NCBI GenBank assembly: GCA_029883265.1
Contig: JAOUJM010000013.1
Location: forward strand, 1 to 42,822
DNA: 42,822 bases
DNA from: Gammaproteobacteria bacterium
GTDB taxonomy: Bacteria > Pseudomonadota > Gammaproteobacteria > S012-40
Reading direction: 5' to 3'
Under the pieces are notes generated by a model. The model was not told the origin of the DNA. It worked only from the letters and a program-made list of their open reading frames with translations, and did no database searches. The translations under genes and the position numbers were made by a program. Numbering within the stretch: position 1 is the stretch's first letter; every line of letters begins with the position of its first letter. This document shows, piece by piece, positions 1,720 through 10,273 of the stretch.

Positions 1720-1956
1720 AACAACTCATTACATTCATTTGCTTCATCACAGACTGATTAATCAAATTTTCTGTTTCATATTGCTATTCCCACTTATTTT
1801 AGTTTATATATGTTATCTACATGGAACGAGCTACCAACACACACGCTCGTGAATTCGAACTGCTTAACCAGGCATTAGAGTAACAAAACCTAGCCGGGCA
1901 ATATTGACGCTAGGGGTCACATTTTTAGCCTTAGAAGACAAAGAGTAGGAATGTTA

Positions 1957-2961
1957 ATGATTGAACACCGATGCACGACAGCGACAGTACGCATGGTACT
2001 CAAGACCGTTGAATCCAAAGGTGTTGATGCAAATGAATTATTGAATCTGGCAGGAATCGACCGGGAAACTGCAGAAAACCCCGATGGGGAAATCAGTTTT
2101 TGTCAAATGCGGGCGTTTTGGCAAAACGCTTTTCAACTCTCAGGCGATCCACTTCTAGGCATGCATACGGCGCAACAAGTCGAAATTGGTGACTATAAAT
2201 ACCTGGATTATCTCATGATACATGCCGCGACGGTTGGTGCTTCAATTCAGAATATTTGTCGTTACACGGCTCTAATTAATACTTGGATTCATTGGGAGAT
2301 TCAGGAGAGAAATGATGACATTGCCATATGCATGAGCTCTAATATCGGCACAATTTGGCCACACGCCTATGAATTTGTTTTTTCTTTTATGACAAAAAGA
2401 ATACGTCAAATCACCACTGAGAGCTGGACGCCGAAGCGTATTTGCCTTCCCTTTTCATCACCAATTAATTCACAAGCACATAAAGATTTTTTCAGAACTA
2501 CATTACAATACGACGCTCCGGTAGGCATACTGGTGATATGCCGCGACAGCTGGAACCAGCCCTTACCCACTAGTGATCAACAATTAATGAGTGTATTAGA
2601 TGAACATGCACGTATGTTGTTGGAAAAACGCCCACTGCCAGACGATTTTGTAGGCCAAGTGCGTAAACAAATTGTACGTGAACTACACGGTGGCGAGGCA
2701 CTTCGAAAAAACGTTGCAGAGAAACTTAATATGAGTCCACGTACTCTGCAACGACGCCTCGACAAACAAGGCGTTATGTATGCTGATTTAGCAGATGAAG
2801 TACGCGCAGAGTTAGCCAAAACAAAATTACAGGCTAGCGATTTATCTTTACCTGAAATTGGTTCTCTACTTGGTTTTTCTGAACAAAGCTCCTTTAATCG
2901 TGCGTTCAAGCGATGGACTGGCAAAACCCCACGAGAATATCGTCGCAAGATGCTATTATAG
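1957..2961 (+). CDS. AraC-family transcriptional regulator (arabinose-binding-like N-domain)
   Basis: A 334-residue regulator. The N-terminal two thirds match the AraC-type effector domain found in OruR/ArgR-like regulators. The C-terminal 90 residues hold the double helix-turn-helix: NVAEKLNMSPRTLQRRL, then LSLPEIGSLLGFSEQSSFNRAFKRWTGKTPREYRR. I place the start at 1957 because AGGA (1947-1950) is six bases upstream; an ATG at 1951 touches the AGGA and would add only two residues. It is convergent with the drug exporter at 3050-4654, so it could regulate that gene, though adjacency is the only support. The ligand is unknown. Confidence 0.88.
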   Translation: MIEHRCTTATVRMVLKTVESKGVDANELLNLAGIDRETAENPDGEISFCQMRAFWQNAFQLSGDPLLGMHTAQQVEIGDYKYLDYLMIHAATVGASIQNICRYTALINTWIHWEIQERNDDIAICMSSNIGTIWPHAYEFVFSFMTKRIRQITTESWTPKRICLPFSSPINSQAHKDFFRTTLQYDAPVGILVICRDSWNQPLPTSDQQLMSVLDEHARMLLEKRPLPDDFVGQVRKQIVRELHGGEALRKNVAEKLNMSPRTLQRRLDKQGVMYADLADEVRAELAKTKLQASDLSLPEIGSLLGFSEQSSFNRAFKRWTGKTPREYRRKMLL

Positions 2962-3049
2962 GCAAGCTTCCAAAGCTCATTTTTCGAAAGCCTCACGCCT
3001 TTAGCTATTTAGACTGAGAGTTTTTACCGTTGCTTCAATTTTATGACAA

Positions 3050-4654
3050 CTACTGGTTATTGTCTTTCTGTTTAGTCGTTTTTGTATTTTTTTCATTGCT
3101 ATCGCGCAATGGAATTTCACGGAGAAAAAGAACCAAAAATACAGCGAAACTCATGGCAATACTGCCGCTGATGAATACATTGGAAAGACCACTATTAAGT
3201 GCTTCACGCATGGCGAATATCAGTTGTTGCAAAAGTGTCTGCATATCGGGCGATAAGGCAAGACTAACTTCGGCCAGTTGCCCAGGGTTAATCAGTAGTT
3301 GCGGCTCTTCCATATGGTCAAGCACTTGGCGTGGCAAGCTTGATAGTTGTTTGGAATCAAAATCATTTTCAAGATTTTTTTCAAGTTGTTGATGCATGGT
3401 GTGAGCCATCACCGTTCCCATTAGCGCAACACCAAGTGTTCCACCGAGCTGACGAAACAATTGTCCAGTTGCGGTGGCCACACCAAGATCTCCGTGATCA
3501 ACGGCATTTTGAATGCTTAAGTTGAACACGGGCATGCCAATACCTAATCCCAAACCAACAATCATCACATAGGCAAAAACTACGGACAATTGGGTTTCTT
3601 GGTTCATTGTCGACAATAAATACATGCCCACTGCTGTTACAGCCAAACCAAAAAATGCAAGATTTTTATAACGTCCACTACGTGTTATGGACTGGCCTCC
3701 TAGAATACTGGCCGCAACTAAACTCAAAGTCATTGGCATAAGCATTGATCCCGATACTGTTGCCGATAAGCCCAAAACACCTTGCAAGTACAGCGGCACA
3801 TATAGCAAGGAACCAAACATGCTGGCACCAATGACAAAAACTATAACGTTGGATAAACTGAAAACACTATTGCTGAATAATTGCAGCGGTAGAATGGGGT
3901 GAGATGCACGACGTTCAACAAAAATGAACAACATCAAGGCAATAACTGCACTAGCAAGCAAGCCAATAATTTCCCATGAAGCCCAAGCATATTGTTGTCC
4001 TGCCCAGGTCGCAGCTAATAATAATGGAATTACACATAGACTGAGTAGTAGTGCGCCAGTGTAATCGATTTTTTGTTTTGTTTTTTGTGGCACTGAAGGG
4101 AACAAAATCATAATTAAAACAAACGCAACAATACCGACGGGAATAAATACCCAAAACACCCACTTCCAATGCCAGTGATCAACAATATATCCACCCAGAG
4201 TAGGTCCAAAGACACTGGCAACGCCGAAACTCGTGCCAAGAAAACCTTGCCAGCGACCGCGTTCTCGGGGCGAGAATAAATCACCTACTGCGGTAAACGA
4301 AGTCGCCATAATAATTCCGCCGCCGACACCTTGAATAATGCGATAGATGATAAGCTCAATTATTCCGCTCGCCAAACCACATAATACCGACGCAAAAATA
4401 AAAATAGCAATACCTGCAAGTATGAACGGCCTACGTCCATAAATATCCGACAGTCGTCCCACTACAACTGCAGGCACCGAAGCAGCTAAAATATAAGCGG
4501 TAAATATCCAACTAAAATATTCTATACCTCCCAGATCTGAAATCATATGCGGCAATGCCGTACTAATAATGGTTTGATTAAGTGCTGCAAATAACATAGC
4601 TGCCATAATGGCAAACATGATACTGAGTTTTTGCCGTTGCTCTAGGTGCTCCAA
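3050..4654 (-). CDS. MFS drug exporter, DHA2 family (14 TM, EmrB/QacA type)
   Basis: A 534-residue multidrug:H+ antiporter of the inner membrane. Visible family motifs are LNQTIISTALP in TM1 (motif D), GRLSDIYGRRP in the TM2-3 loop (motif A) and FGVASVFGPTLGG in TM5 (motif C). The hydropathy pattern fits 14 helices with a periplasmic loop near the C-terminal end. The frame opens with TTG at 4654, preceded at a longish spacing by GAGG; the first ATG would remove 12 residues of the cytosolic N terminus and has no ribosome site, so TTG is preferred. No EmrA-like membrane fusion partner is nearby. A 22-base dyad lies just upstream at 4681-4702. The exported substrate cannot be predicted. Confidence 0.9.
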   Translation of the reverse strand: MEHLEQRQKLSIMFAIMAAMLFAALNQTIISTALPHMISDLGGIEYFSWIFTAYILAASVPAVVVGRLSDIYGRRPFILAGIAIFIFASVLCGLASGIIELIIYRIIQGVGGGIIMATSFTAVGDLFSPRERGRWQGFLGTSFGVASVFGPTLGGYIVDHWHWKWVFWVFIPVGIVAFVLIMILFPSVPQKTKQKIDYTGALLLSLCVIPLLLAATWAGQQYAWASWEIIGLLASAVIALMLFIFVERRASHPILPLQLFSNSVFSLSNVIVFVIGASMFGSLLYVPLYLQGVLGLSATVSGSMLMPMTLSLVAASILGGQSITRSGRYKNLAFFGLAVTAVGMYLLSTMNQETQLSVVFAYVMIVGLGLGIGMPVFNLSIQNAVDHGDLGVATATGQLFRQLGGTLGVALMGTVMAHTMHQQLEKNLENDFDSKQLSSLPRQVLDHMEEPQLLINPGQLAEVSLALSPDMQTLLQQLIFAMREALNSGLSNVFISGSIAMSFAVFLVLFLREIPLRDSNEKNTKTTKQKDNNQ

Positions 4655-4787: not shown

Positions 4788-5784
4788 TTATATATTCTTT
4801 ATCAGCACTTTTCCTTTGGCCCGCACTGATTCCATGTAGGCCAAGGCGTCTTGTGTTTGCGAAAAAGCTAAGACTCGATTAATGATTGGTTGTATTTTGC
4901 CTTGTTCATAATAGTCACGAATAATGTGCAATTGCAGGCCACTATCTTTCATAAAATGATAAGTATAATTCACAGTAAATTGTTTAACTTTTTTAGTTAT
5001 TCCACGTGAGACTAGAGCAAACAGAACTGCTTTCCTTGATCCTAGATTTTGGCTCATTGCAAACTTTGCATTGGGCATCCCACTAATCGATGCCACGCAG
5101 TCACCAGGTTTGACAATCTGAAAAGATTTATACAGCGCATCACCCCCCAGCGTATCGAATACCGCATCATAATCAGACAAAATAGTTTCTAATGATTTTT
5201 TTGTAATTAATTATTTTGTCTGCGCCGAGAGAAGCTACCAAGTCATACCCTTGCTCACTCACCGTAGTTGCGACATAAGCACCCATGTGTTTCGCTAATT
5301 GAATAGCGAAGCTACCGATGCCGCCCGCGCCTGCTTAAATCAAAATCTTTTGCCCATATTGCAGCGTCATCATATCATTAAATACTTGATATGAAATCAA
5401 TCCAATTAATGGCATTGATGCCGCTTTAACAAATGATAGATTTTTTGATTTAAGCGCTATGGTATTTTCATTAATCGCAATACATTCTGCAAACGTTCTA
5501 ATACGATTCTTTGTTGCTCTTGCGTAAATTTCATCACCGACTTTAAATTTCCTAACTTTAGAACCGACTTGAGAAATTACGCCAGGGAAGTCATTTCCCA
5601 TAGTCAATGGCATTTAATTTTTAAGCAGTATTTTTGCCTTGCCATCACGCAATTTAAAGTCTAGGAGATTTACACTGGCCGTATATATTTCCGCCAGAAC
5701 ATCATATTCACCTACTTCAGGATTCTAAACATCTTTCACACATAACGGTTGACGACCGTATTGTTTAATTACAAAAACTTTCAT
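4788..5784 (-). pseudogene. Zinc-free alcohol dehydrogenase / quinone oxidoreductase (MDR family), degraded
   Basis: Starting at ATG 5784 (AGG ribosome site upstream) the frame reads MKVFVIKQYGRQPLCVKDV, then NPEVGEYDVLAEIYTASVN, GNDFPGVISQVGSKV and AGAGGIGSFAIQLAKHMGA, the nucleotide-binding loop, and ends AYMESVRAKGKVLIKNI. This is a whole medium-chain dehydrogenase of about 330 residues. It is broken by TAG after KDV, TAA before MPLTMGND (family has KLPL), TAA before AGAGG (family has Gln), and a one-base shift in the T7 tract at 5196-5202, after which SLETILSDYDAVFDTLGG resumes. Intact relatives reduce quinones or enals with NADPH. The remaining open pieces are 5335-5613 and 4788-5180; neither would make a functional enzyme. 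Confidence 0.92.
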
Positions 5785-6061
5785 TATTTTATTTACCTTT
5801 GGTTTATTTTTGTTTGACTACTTATTCGACACTGAAGAACGAATGTGGCTAGTTTTGTTTTCACATATAAAGCTTATCAGCTTCTTATATAGCACTATTA
5901 AAGCAATGCTCTAAGTAGTTATGACAGAAATGCAATGTAATCATCACGTCTAGCTGACGACCAACATTACTAATCATGTAACAGCTAGAAAAATATCTTA
6001 GGTGAATCGTGAATAATTTATTTGTAGTATAAAAAAACATAAGTACTGCCCGTTGCGATAA

Positions 6062-6081
6062 AACATGACCAGGATCATGTT
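6062..6081. promoter_or_regulatory. Palindromic site, possible operator of the binding-protein operon
   Basis: AACATGA and TCATGTT form perfect 7-base arms around CCAGGA. The right arm overlaps the proposed -35 element at 6080-6085, a position suited to repression. It does not match the FNR/Anr, NtrC or CRP consensus as I know them. The cognate regulator is unknown. Confidence 0.4.
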
Positions 6082-6108
6082 GCACCTTAATAAAGCCGAT
6101 CCTACACT
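6080..6108 (+). promoter_or_regulatory. Possible sigma-70 promoter for the 6210-10077 operon
   Basis: TTGCAC, a 17-base spacer and TACACT. The -10 keeps the key A2 and T6 positions, but the -35 matches only its first three bases, so this is weak evidence. It would give a leader of about 95 bases before the binding-protein start. Confidence 0.28.
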
Positions 6109-6209
6109 TGTCCCAATCTACAAATGAATAACCAAGGCCACAAGCTTCGAGTTACGGATTTCAAGTCTTTGGTGACCTAACAACAATTTGGTTATGTGGG
6201 GCAAGCATC

Positions 6210-7259
6210 ATGAAAAAGTTTTATTCGGCTTATTTGCTAACATTTTCAATTTTTATTGGATCAGCAGCGGCGCAAACTGAAGTTTTGTTTAACGTCCCTA
6301 TCGGCATTACACCGGCCTTGAGTACCGCCGGACTATTCATCGCTTATGAACAAGGCTATTTTCGAGCGCAAGGTATAAATCTGATTATGAATCACGTACC
6401 ACGAGCCGGTGCACAAATGATTCCTTTTCTCGCCAGCGGGCAGCTATTAGTAGGCTGCGGTAATCTCAATGCCGGATTATATAATGCAATCGCCAACGAC
6501 ATTCCCATAAAAGTCGTTGCAGATAAAGGAACGGTCACACCGAATCACGGCTATCTCGCTTTATTGGTCAGAAAAGCGCATGTTGATTCAGGCCGCTACA
6601 AAACACTCGGCGATTTAAAAGGCATGACAATTGCGCTTACTGCACGGGGTGTTTCTCAGGAAATTGTTTTGGAAAAATATTTGCACCAAGCTCAGTTGAA
6701 CTTGTCCGATGTGCGCTTAATCAATCTTAGCTGGGGTGATATGAATGTCGCTTTAGCCAACGGCGCAATTGATGCAACCATTCAAGTTGAACCGCTAGTC
6801 GCAAAAGCAGTTGAGAACGGCATTGCGGTTCGGGTCAAGGGCGACGACGAAGTCTATCCCAATCAACAAAGCGCCGTCATAATGTATTCGCCAGTCTTTA
6901 TAAACAAACATCCTGAAATGGCTAAACGCTTTATGGTTGCCTATGTCAAGGGCATGCGTGATTATAACGATGCATTTGAGAACAATATCAACAAAGAAAC
7001 GATAATTCATATTTTAATGAAACATACTAAAGTAAAAGACCGCGCTACTTATGACAAAGTCGCCAACGTAGGTTTGAATCCCGATGCCATGTTAAATATA
7101 GAAACCATGCGCGCAGATGCTCAATGGTTGTATCAAAAACGATATATAAAGAATCCTGCTGATGTAGATAATATTGCTGAACTGCGTTTTATTAACTATG
7201 CACGCAAGGTATTAGGTCCGTACACACCCAATAAAGCGTTCGCTAACGTCAACCCCTAA
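6210..7259 (+). CDS. ABC-type periplasmic substrate-binding protein, NMT1/THI5-like (SsuA/TauA type)
   Basis: A 349-residue secreted protein. The signal peptide MKKFYSAYLLTFSIFIGSAAA has a likely cut after Ala21. The mature part follows the NitT/TauT/THI5-like pattern: IAYEQGYFRAQGINLIM (early helix), a PFLASGQLLVGCG segment, LGDLKGMTIAL, and GAIDATIQVEPLVAKA near the second lobe. Relatives bind nitrate, sulfonates, thiamin pyrimidines or other small molecules; the ligand cannot be read here. The CCCFC iron motif of the THI5 enzymes is absent, and the export signal argues for a transport or sensing protein. GGGG is eight bases upstream of the ATG. The radical SAM gene starts 12 bases after the stop. 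No permease or ATPase gene is adjacent, which is unusual. Confidence 0.85.
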   Translation: MKKFYSAYLLTFSIFIGSAAAQTEVLFNVPIGITPALSTAGLFIAYEQGYFRAQGINLIMNHVPRAGAQMIPFLASGQLLVGCGNLNAGLYNAIANDIPIKVVADKGTVTPNHGYLALLVRKAHVDSGRYKTLGDLKGMTIALTARGVSQEIVLEKYLHQAQLNLSDVRLINLSWGDMNVALANGAIDATIQVEPLVAKAVENGIAVRVKGDDEVYPNQQSAVIMYSPVFINKHPEMAKRFMVAYVKGMRDYNDAFENNINKETIIHILMKHTKVKDRATYDKVANVGLNPDAMLNIETMRADAQWLYQKRYIKNPADVDNIAELRFINYARKVLGPYTPNKAFANVNP

Positions 7260-7271
7260 GAGGCTCTTTGC

Positions 7272-8738
7272 ATGCAGCACGCACAAACCTTTTTGCATCA
7301 AGCCAAAGCTATGCTTGACGCCTTTAATTTGCACGAAGTAAAAGCCAGTGGTTTGTTGCCCAATAACGGCAATCTGTTTTTTCCTGTCGTCAACTATCCA
7401 CCAACGATTATGATTGAAAACCAGAATGAGGCTCACACAGCTTCCGATGATCGACTACATCGCCGACGACTCTACACTGGATACTTGCATATTCCGTTTT
7501 GTCCGTCACGCTGCACCTATTGCCACTGGATCACCAAAAGCAAAAGCAAGAGCAATGAGGTTGATCGTTATATACAATATTTAATTAAAGAAATGCAGCT
7601 ACAACAACAAGCAAATGCAGACGCAACACCAATTGCCTTGCAATCGGTTTTATGGGGTGGTGGCACGCCTACATATCCCGAGGCGCGACAAATGGAAACC
7701 CTGCTACAAGCCTATCACAAATATTACGACCTAAGTGCTTGTAGCCAATTTTCTGTGGAAGCAGAACCCGGCACGTTAATTGGTGCTAGCGGCATTCATC
7801 GTTTGAATGTCATGAAAGACTATGGCGTCGATCGCATCAGTCTCGGCGTGCAATCGTTTGATAATCAAATACTCAAACAAATGGGGCGTTCGCATACTCA
7901 CGAAGACACACTCAAGGCCTTATCCAATATGCGCAAGCTCGGCTTTAATAATATTTATATTGATTTGATTTATGGTTATCCTGGACAAACCATCAAACAA
8001 TGGGAACAACAACTACTACAAGCAGTAGCACTCGATATTGACGGCTTTCAATTGTTCCGCCTACGCATTAAACCCACTGGTGCAAGACAAGGCAGAATTG
8101 TCAATATGCAAAACAAAAATCCAGAGCAATTTCTCAAAGCAGATGATATATTTTTAATGAAGGCCTTAGGTAAAATTATTTCTGAATCCCATGGTTTTTA
8201 CGAGTTTCAACGCCGCATATTTTCCAAGAATTCCTATAGTTCCTCTCATTATTTGCGCGATTGGTTTTTGAAGCTTTACGACATTATTGGCGTAGGTGTA
8301 TCCGCCTGGTCTCAGGTTCAAGGAACATTTTCAGTGAACATTAGTGATAGCGATTTAGAAAAATATTACGCTATGCTTGATAAAGACCAACTTCCAGTCA
8401 AACAACAAATGAGGCAAAGCCTGGATGATCTTGTTAGACGTAGTTTCATTCTGCCACTAAAGAACGATGTAGTAGATAAGAAACAATTTCATCAAACAAC
8501 CGGATTACAATTCAAAGATTATTTTTCGACACAAATTGCTACTCTAAAACAACTAGACATGCTTGCAGAGACATCTACTTGTTATTTTTTAACTACAAAA
8601 GGTCAGTTTTTTGCTGATGAAGTCTGCACCCAATTTTTTGCTGAAAAATATCAACCGTTCAAGGGCAGCACCCGCTTAACACTAGCGCAAACAGTAGCCT
8701 CTAACAGGAACTCACAAGTCAATGCTCACGCAGATTAA
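7272..8738 (+). CDS. HemN/HemW-like radical SAM protein (coproporphyrinogen III oxidase family)
   Basis: A 488-residue radical SAM enzyme. The iron-sulfur motif is C77-x3-C81-x2-C84 (HIPFCPSRCTYC), followed by GGGTPTY at 129-135 (SAM binding), SVEAEPGTL near 161, DRISLGVQSF at 187-196 and DLIYGYPGQT at 231-240, all in HemN-family order. An N-terminal stretch of about 70 residues with NYPPTIMIE precedes the barrel, and GVGVSAW near 341 stands where HemW has its Gly-Ala-Gly loop. Family members do decarboxylation, haem trafficking, haem opening (HutW/ChuW) or C-methylation, so the name coproporphyrinogen oxidase would be premature. The cysteine motif is followed by His-Trp rather than the Asp-Phe usual in HemW. 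The start has GAGG eight bases upstream, and the stop overlaps the aldehyde dehydrogenase gene by 17 bases. Confidence 0.85.
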   Translation: MQHAQTFLHQAKAMLDAFNLHEVKASGLLPNNGNLFFPVVNYPPTIMIENQNEAHTASDDRLHRRRLYTGYLHIPFCPSRCTYCHWITKSKSKSNEVDRYIQYLIKEMQLQQQANADATPIALQSVLWGGGTPTYPEARQMETLLQAYHKYYDLSACSQFSVEAEPGTLIGASGIHRLNVMKDYGVDRISLGVQSFDNQILKQMGRSHTHEDTLKALSNMRKLGFNNIYIDLIYGYPGQTIKQWEQQLLQAVALDIDGFQLFRLRIKPTGARQGRIVNMQNKNPEQFLKADDIFLMKALGKIISESHGFYEFQRRIFSKNSYSSSHYLRDWFLKLYDIIGVGVSAWSQVQGTFSVNISDSDLEKYYAMLDKDQLPVKQQMRQSLDDLVRRSFILPLKNDVVDKKQFHQTTGLQFKDYFSTQIATLKQLDMLAETSTCYFLTTKGQFFADEVCTQFFAEKYQPFKGSTRLTLAQTVASNRNSQVNAHAD

Positions 8739-10077
8739 TCCTTTTACGGAAACGATTGAGTATACCGTCGATGCTCATAATGATTCACAAATACAACTGT
8801 TTTTACAACAAGCAGATGCAGGCTTTGATCATTGGAGACGATTATCAATATGTAATCGTCAGGAGAAAGTGCAAAATCTCGCTAAACTTCTTCGACAGAA
8901 TAAACGCCAGTTTGCTACTAGTATTTCTACTGGCATGGGAAAAATCATTAACGAATCCTTGGCGGAAATTGATAAGTGCATATTGACCTGTGACTATTAT
9001 GTTGAACATGCGGAAGCATTCCTCAGAGATGAAGTGATTGGCTTTAACGACGCTTATGTATTACACCAACCACTAGGCACCATACTTGGCATCATGCCTT
9101 GGAATTTTCCATTTTGGCAAGTATTTCGTTTTGCTATACCCACCTTACTCGCCGGTAATACTGTTTTATTAAAACATGCCTCATCCATCCCACAATTGGC
9201 GCAAATTATACAACAAATATTTTGCGATGCCGGTTTTGCTAAGACTGTTTTTCGCTGCTTGTTAATTGGTGCGGACAAAATCGAGAAACTTATTTCCAGC
9301 CCAGTCATCAAAGGCGTTGCGATCACCGCAAGTGAAAACACCGGTCGCATAGTTGCAGCACTAGCGGGCCATAATCTAAAACCCGTCTTGCTTGAACTAG
9401 GCGGCTCTGATCCTTTTATTGTACTTGAAGATGCGCCCATCAACGAGACAGTCAATGCAGCCGTCGCATCACGCTTTTTCACATCGGGACAAAGCTGCAT
9501 AAATGCCAAACGATTTATTCTTACACCAGCTATCACAGAGCAATTTATTCAATCATTTTCGCAAGCCGTAAAAAAATTGAAACTTGGCGATCCTTTGGAC
9601 CAAAACACCCAACTTGGGCCAATGGCACGTAAGGATTTAGTAGGGCTTATCAACTCACAGGTCGAAAGCAGTGTTGCTGAAGGTGCAAAAATTATTGCAA
9701 CACACTCAAACCTGCCAAGCACTGGTTTTTTTTATCCTCCTTGTATACTGGATAACGTGCACACTGGCATCCCTGCTCATGATGAGGAACTTTTCGGCCC
9801 TGTAGCTACTATAATTCGCGCACAAGACGAAACACATGCGATTCACATTGCCAATAATACGCGCTTTGGATTAGGTGCCAGTATATGGAGTGAAAACAAG
9901 CAGCATGCAAAAGCATTAGCCAAAGAAATTGATGCAGGAATGGTTTTTATCAATAGCATTGTCAGAAGTGATCCAAGAATTCCATTTGGCGGCATCAAAC
10001 ACTCGGGCTTTGGTCGCGAACTACAACGCCCAGGCATTCGCTACTTCTGCAACCACAAAACATTATATAGTGAGTAG
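8722..10077 (+). CDS. NAD(P)-dependent aldehyde dehydrogenase, Sad/YneI (succinate-semialdehyde dehydrogenase)-like
   Basis: A 451-residue class I-type aldehyde dehydrogenase, the short form typical of E. coli Sad (YneI). Catalytic residues are in place: Asn128 in MPWNFPFWQ, Glu225 in LLELGGSDPF, Cys259 in TSGQSCINAKR, and EELFGPVA later. KHASS at 151 and the C-terminal PFGGIKHSGFGREL also match Sad. It oxidises an aldehyde, possibly a semialdehyde, to an acid. The cofactor loop reads ITASENTGR rather than the commoner G-S-x-x-x-G form. Its start lies inside the radical SAM gene, so the two are translationally coupled. This implies that an aldehyde arises in the pathway served by the operon, but the substrate is unknown. 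Confidence 0.9.
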   Translation: MLTQINPFTETIEYTVDAHNDSQIQLFLQQADAGFDHWRRLSICNRQEKVQNLAKLLRQNKRQFATSISTGMGKIINESLAEIDKCILTCDYYVEHAEAFLRDEVIGFNDAYVLHQPLGTILGIMPWNFPFWQVFRFAIPTLLAGNTVLLKHASSIPQLAQIIQQIFCDAGFAKTVFRCLLIGADKIEKLISSPVIKGVAITASENTGRIVAALAGHNLKPVLLELGGSDPFIVLEDAPINETVNAAVASRFFTSGQSCINAKRFILTPAITEQFIQSFSQAVKKLKLGDPLDQNTQLGPMARKDLVGLINSQVESSVAEGAKIIATHSNLPSTGFFYPPCILDNVHTGIPAHDEELFGPVATIIRAQDETHAIHIANNTRFGLGASIWSENKQHAKALAKEIDAGMVFINSIVRSDPRIPFGGIKHSGFGRELQRPGIRYFCNHKTLYSE

Positions 10078-10097
10078 ATAGCAAATCCTGCTATCTA
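10075..10097 (+). terminator. Hairpin at the end of the aldehyde dehydrogenase gene
   Basis: TAGATAGC, a 7-base loop, then GCTATCTA: a perfect 8-base stem that begins within the stop codon of the aldehyde dehydrogenase. It is followed by an AT-rich tail but no clean T run, so it is a weak or processed terminator for the three-gene operon. Confidence 0.45.
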
Positions 10098-10273
10098 TTA
10101 AATAATGAAAATGGGTAACTTGATAAGTCTCAATAAATTTTGAATGCCAGTCGATGCCATTTCACTAGAAATCAAACAAGCCTCATCAATTTAGGCACCG
10201 GACAAAACCGCTATCATTTCAGCAAGCAAGAGTGCTCCCTTAGCGGCAGACGAAAATGATCTATTTTTCATTT

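Follow-up and report, generated by a model that had tools for sequence, protein, structure and literature searches.

What a periplasmic substrate-binding protein (SBP), a radical SAM protein of the HemN superfamily (rSAM) and an aldehyde dehydrogenase (ALDH) might do together is the question raised by a compact group of genes on contig C235 of a gammaproteobacterial assembly (G000; 520 contigs, 5.27 Mb). The window, as the term is used here, is the whole stretch of 42,822 nucleotides that was analysed. Its tetranucleotide composition was compared with other contigs of the genome (correlation 0.92–0.96), and since the composition matches, misbinning of the contig is unlikely. The trio points to a small-molecule pathway as yet unnamed, and its features are as follows:

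6062–6081, no strand: palindrome AACATGACCAGGATCATGTT (AACATGA-N6-TCATGTT), likely operator, with similar copies before two other SBP genes
6210–7259, forward strand: SBP gene, intact ORF of 349 amino acids, NMT1/SsuA-like periplasmic protein with a signal-like N-terminal segment
7272–8738, forward strand: HemN-superfamily radical SAM gene, intact ORF of 488 amino acids, CX3CX2C motif (C77-C81-C84) followed by HW
8722–10077, forward strand: Sad-like aldehyde dehydrogenase gene, intact ORF of 451 amino acids, catalytic C259 and E225
10073–10099, forward strand: hairpin lacking a T run, directly past the last stop codon

The initial annotation had described this layout as looking like one operon, and most of its elements were recovered. 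The three reading frames are intact, with a gap of 12 bases (7260–7271) between the SBP and rSAM genes and an overlap of 17 bases (8722–8738) between the rSAM and ALDH genes, the latter suggesting translational coupling of these two. The hairpin at the end is present (folding z = −2.98), though its T run is absent, and a terminator scan called no terminator there. A promoter-like pair in front was also proposed but did not hold up, as a promoter scan gave no site in 5765–6209 and 8 promoter-like sites in the region, fewer than the mean of 12.4 in shuffled sequences. The palindrome in front was found again before the SBP gene on contig C156 of the same genome (AACCTGATCTAGATCAGGTT) and before that of genome G764 (AACATGATCTGGATCATGTT), with at most two mismatches to the consensus; its far end lies 148–169 bases ahead of the start codon in all three cases. 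It was not found in the other 15 SBP upstream regions. Since it precedes two further SBP genes of this family at much the same spacing, the palindrome is more than a chance occurrence, and it is likely an operator shared by these three genes.

Further upstream in the window, an AraC-type regulator gene (nearest NCBIfam QhpR, below cut-off) and a gene for a DHA2-type MFS multidrug efflux protein are convergently oriented (1951–4654). Two short ORFs follow on the reverse strand (4788–5613), one resembling the C-terminal part of zinc-type dehydrogenases (4788–5180) and one an N-terminal-like part (5335–5613), and both may belong to one broken dehydrogenase gene or reflect an assembly error.

The binding protein had been called NMT1/THI5-like. 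The NMT1 part of this assignment stood (PF09084, NMT1/SsuA-like, 1e-19), whereas a THI5/ThiY-like role in pyrimidine metabolism was set aside, as only generic NMT1 matches were obtained. The protein scores under the SsuA, TauA and nitrate-type cut-offs (for SsuA, TIGR01728, 98.8 bits vs 163.5). Comparisons of the SBP are based on its sequence, as its AlphaFold model is of poor quality for comparing binding pockets (pLDDT 50). The closest SBPs outside the system are 34–44% identical and mostly belong to ABC operons within aromatic-acid clusters, where Rieske dioxygenases, a PdxA-like dehydrogenase, UbiD/UbiX and IclR regulators are encoded alongside. From these surroundings we infer a small carboxylate, possibly aromatic, as the ligand of the core system, a guess from the context of relatives at that level of identity.

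The second protein carries Radical_SAM and HemN_C domains, in agreement with its earlier placement in the HemN family. Its cluster motif CX3CX2C and SAM1-site residues place it in the radical SAM superfamily: C77, C81, C84, E163, Q194, R206 and D231 correspond to C62, C66, C69, E145, Q172, R184 and D209 of HemN, and HemN Y56 is also kept. The SAM2-site positions C71, F310 and Q311 of HemN are W, L and R in the window protein, and two-SAM chemistry is therefore uncertain. A family signature was recognised as CX3CT[FY]CHWITK plus SHYLRD. All curated cut-offs were missed, namely those for HemN (TIGR00538, 171.9 bits vs 324.95), HemW (TIGR00539, 184.8 vs 205.4), ChuW/HutW (TIGR04107, 182.8 vs 400) and the STM4012 family (177.8 vs 380). 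Firm grouping with a known HemN, HemW or HutW clade had been named in the initial annotation as speaking against its reading. In the tree, the protein does not group with HemN or HemW: the 17 rSAM members form one clade of their own (support 100/99) apart from both, and ChuW, whose branch is very long, is placed outside this clade at an exact position that is unsure. The AlphaFold model (pLDDT 70.7) is best matched by HemN (1olt), with NocN as the second-best PDB match.

A search of genome contigs with the single rSAM sequence gave no match, and a profile search of genome contigs gave HemW-like proteins of Firmicutes and at least five loci in gammaproteobacterial MAGs. In plasmid and phage collections no close relative appeared besides a protein from Bradyrhizobium plasmids, the closest out-of-clade homologue found, which is 36% identical to the window protein and 40% to the G764 protein. 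Within about 10 genes of this homologue lie EamA and signal-bearing SAM methyltransferase genes, and the ABC genes there are different. On the plasmid of Bradyrhizobium sp. ISRA443 (L215:3753–16413), a signal-bearing methyltransferase, EamA and two radical SAM proteins, one of them the HemN-like relative, are encoded within 13 kb, along with ABC and efflux genes.

Comparison across genomes confirmed the linkage of SBP and rSAM genes, which are adjacent and co-occur in many genomes, and placed them in a conserved system of six families: a signal-bearing SAM methyltransferase, an EamA permease, the SBP, an ABC ATPase, an ABC permease and the rSAM. Both SBP and rSAM are present in 17 gammaproteobacterial genomes from four families. 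In a class-level sample of 369 genomes, four had both and one (79% complete) had the rSAM alone; G003, which lies outside this sample, carries both. Of the 24 genomes in the order that includes G207, 12 had both, 10 neither and two one of the two (Fisher p ~6e-5, calculated by hand and uncorrected for kinship). A phylum-wide sample added no further genomes with the system. The carriers found here are gammaproteobacterial genomes only, MAGs account for all five that have named records, and Bradyrhizobium represents a partial relative. A literature search found no description of the SBP and radical SAM combination; the system is a rare one of uncultured bacteria and appears to be undescribed.

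The two genes are adjacent at G000:C12, G048, G764, G762, G766 and G776. The usual order is a divergent methyltransferase gene, then EamA, SBP, ATPase and permease, with the rSAM gene adjoining or elsewhere, and a matching ABC ATPase and permease occur in nearly all relatives. A trio conserved without ABC parts, as initially envisaged, was not seen, as ABC parts are usual and the ALDH gene is missing from all other loci. In genome G048 (contig C75, L038:2280–5759), the core system is immediately preceded by genes for MoeA-like, MoaB-like and sulfite-oxidase-type molybdoenzyme proteins, none of which were seen there in other genomes.

The exported-looking SAM methyltransferase, encoded divergently from the EamA permease, was observed at L035:1225–4007 (G000:C12), L040:8507–10356, L136, L151, L178 and other loci. 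All 10 methyltransferases with a readable start have a hydrophobic N-terminal segment and seven of the 10 a lipobox-like motif, so that, judged by inspection of the sequences, the core-system methyltransferases look exported. An exported SAM methyltransferase would be unexpected, and its position beside an EamA permease raises the question of bacterial SAM use outside the cytoplasm. SAM transporters of the EamA-type superfamily are known from Rickettsia.

These gene contents could also be read as biosynthesis or salvage: the SBP would import a precursor or breakdown product, the rSAM would extend it by methylene transfer to yield a natural product or cofactor, which in the core system would be finished or exported by the methyltransferase and EamA permease, and in the version found in the window would be tailored by the ALDH. 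HemN-like enzymes with a partner methyltransferase act in this manner in CC-1065 synthesis (PMC6050322), and both the NocN match of the rSAM model and the second radical SAM, EamA, signal-bearing methyltransferase and efflux genes near the Bradyrhizobium homologue fit such a role. However, clustering of neighbouring ORFs showed recurrence in at least three genera for the six families only, with no biosynthetic core enzyme among them, and an ABC importer is the constant partner. The proposal is thus considered rather unlikely.

The window is not the sole place in its genome where these families occur. Further SBP copies (56–57% identity) lie on contigs C12 and C156, and a further rSAM copy (49%) on C12, beside the SBP gene and behind the EamA permease gene. 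The SBP had initially been regarded as lacking a permease or ATPase; locally this is correct, with neither gene beside it, but contig C172 of the same genome encodes one closely related ABC permease (67% identical to the G764 protein) together with its ATPase (53%), and no SBP gene adjoins them. The three SBPs of this genome may share this ABC core; it may also be that the window SBP is unable to dock on the C172 permease. A gene for an Rrf2-type regulator lies divergent from the ABC genes on C172 (L133:8359–8817). Overall, the initial observation, the SBP–rSAM link and the position of the rSAM outside HemN and HemW and far below the HutW cut-off were upheld, and conservation of the trio and a genome-wide lack of ABC parts were not.

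The window copies are highly divergent. Their terminal branches measure 1.42 for the rSAM, 1.9 for the SBP and 2.69 for the ALDH, compared with medians of 0.34, 0.35 and 0.46, and many family-invariant sites are changed across the window proteins; the rSAM alone has 24 changes at clade-invariant positions vs 0–6 in other members. This concerted divergence of all three proteins supports the view that the three genes form a single specialised unit; the same pattern would, however, also arise if they had been transferred together from a distant lineage. In the SBP, F63, S66, K69 and G83 are lost, which are kept by the family and by at least five of six outside relatives from aromatic clusters; Q at position 69 is also found in the G767 SBP, another long-branched one. 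As these ligand-loop residues are lost although kept in relatives of 34–44% identity, the window SBP has likely switched its substrate relative to the family. The same long branches in all three genes and the many altered invariant positions would also be expected from a redundant paralogue under relaxation that is losing its function. All frames are intact, however, and neither the cysteines of the cluster nor the catalytic residues nor the operator-like palindrome have been lost, which makes decay of the duplicate very improbable.

The third protein is an Aldedh member that appears nearest to Sad-type succinate-semialdehyde dehydrogenases, as annotated before, although the curated Sad family score was not reached (NF006915, 467.8 vs 730 bits). 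The catalytic Cys and Glu and the oxyanion Asn are present (C259, E225 and N128). As the ALDH gene is absent from every other SBP/rSAM locus compared and adjoins the pair in the window only, it might be a chance neighbour. The SBP–rSAM pair would then be the functional unit and the ALDH an ordinary succinate-semialdehyde dehydrogenase, which would agree with the finding that Sad-like ALDHs are common in relatives with one strong match per genome, that the window gene is the sole strong match in its own genome, and that the pair is found elsewhere without it. Against this, the gene overlaps the rSAM gene by 17 bases, and its product is 44–50% identical to the Sad-like proteins of family relatives, which share 53–80% among themselves, and is long-branched like both its neighbours. 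A chance association is therefore viewed as doubtful.

The reading preferred here, and put forward tentatively, is that the window unit represents a duplicated and specialised version of the core pair, SBP and HemN-like rSAM, of a rare ABC-import/radical-SAM system, that an ALDH joined this pair, and that an imported acid undergoes a radical reaction giving an aldehyde that is then oxidised. Family membership, co-occurrence, the ABC partner in the same genome, the intact cluster, SAM1-site and ALDH catalytic residues and the concerted divergence are read from the sequences, and the order of import, radical reaction and aldehyde oxidation is proposed by analogy, in mechanism only, with the chu/hut heme operons and HemN-like methylene transferases. 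In the periplasm, the SBP would bind a small carboxylated compound, possibly an aromatic one, and pass it on to the ABC ATPase and permease encoded on C172. In the cytoplasm, the rSAM with its [4Fe-4S] cluster and SAM would make or break a bond in this compound, perhaps using two SAMs like HemN and ChuW. Finally, the resulting aldehyde would be oxidised to an acid by the Sad-like dehydrogenase, using NAD(P). The chemistry suggested initially, cleavage or decarboxylation to an aldehyde followed by oxidation to an acid, would be compatible with these parts.

A bolder and distinctly improbable extension is that the core substrate is first modified outside the cytoplasm by the exported methyltransferase with SAM supplied via the EamA permease, before ABC import and radical cleavage, and that the window unit is a second, substrate-switched branch with aldehyde oxidation, the whole being an undescribed catabolic route that involves SAM chemistry in the periplasm. 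In any case, the analysis defines a conserved gene system that pairs an ABC importer with a new HemN-superfamily radical enzyme. If the preferred reading is right, there would be a radical-SAM uptake pathway beyond heme, with a substrate that could be found via one binding protein.

Among known systems, the selenocysteine-assisted organometallic (SAO) ABC system was considered for its transporter scores, SaoA being the best NCBIfam match of the core ATPase and SaoP lying at most 2 bits from the best match of the core permease. Membership was rejected, as all scores stay below the cut-offs, with 235/360 for SaoA and 138/295 for SaoP (G764 proteins) and 37/300 bits for SaoX (SBP). SsuA, TauA and aromatic-acid importers of the NMT1 type have the SBP, ATPase and permease families in common with the system, but EamA and the radical SAM protein always accompany the SBP in this clade. 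HemN-like enzymes are able to transfer methylene groups, and C10P pairs with a separate methyltransferase in CC-1065 synthesis (PMC6050322). Such class C enzymes (C10P, NosN, NocN) share the HemN superfamily with the rSAM, and NocN also a CTFC[DH]W-like motif; they differ in that no natural-product cluster is found here and that the associated methyltransferase looks exported. In the chu/hut operons (ChuT, ChuW, ChuX, ChuY, ChuU, ChuV; HutW), the radical SAM enzyme acts on imported heme and uses two SAMs for ring opening (PMC10035031). As in the window, the gene for an SBP comes directly before that for a HemN-superfamily radical SAM enzyme, and ABC parts occur in the same genome. In contrast, the window SBP is NMT1/SsuA-like and not of the heme type, the rSAM reaches 182.8 of the 400 bits set for HutW, and no TonB receptor or ChuX/ChuY homologue is among the recurrent neighbours. 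Although the unit is not a member of them, the chu/hut operons would, by analogy, be its nearest functional counterpart.
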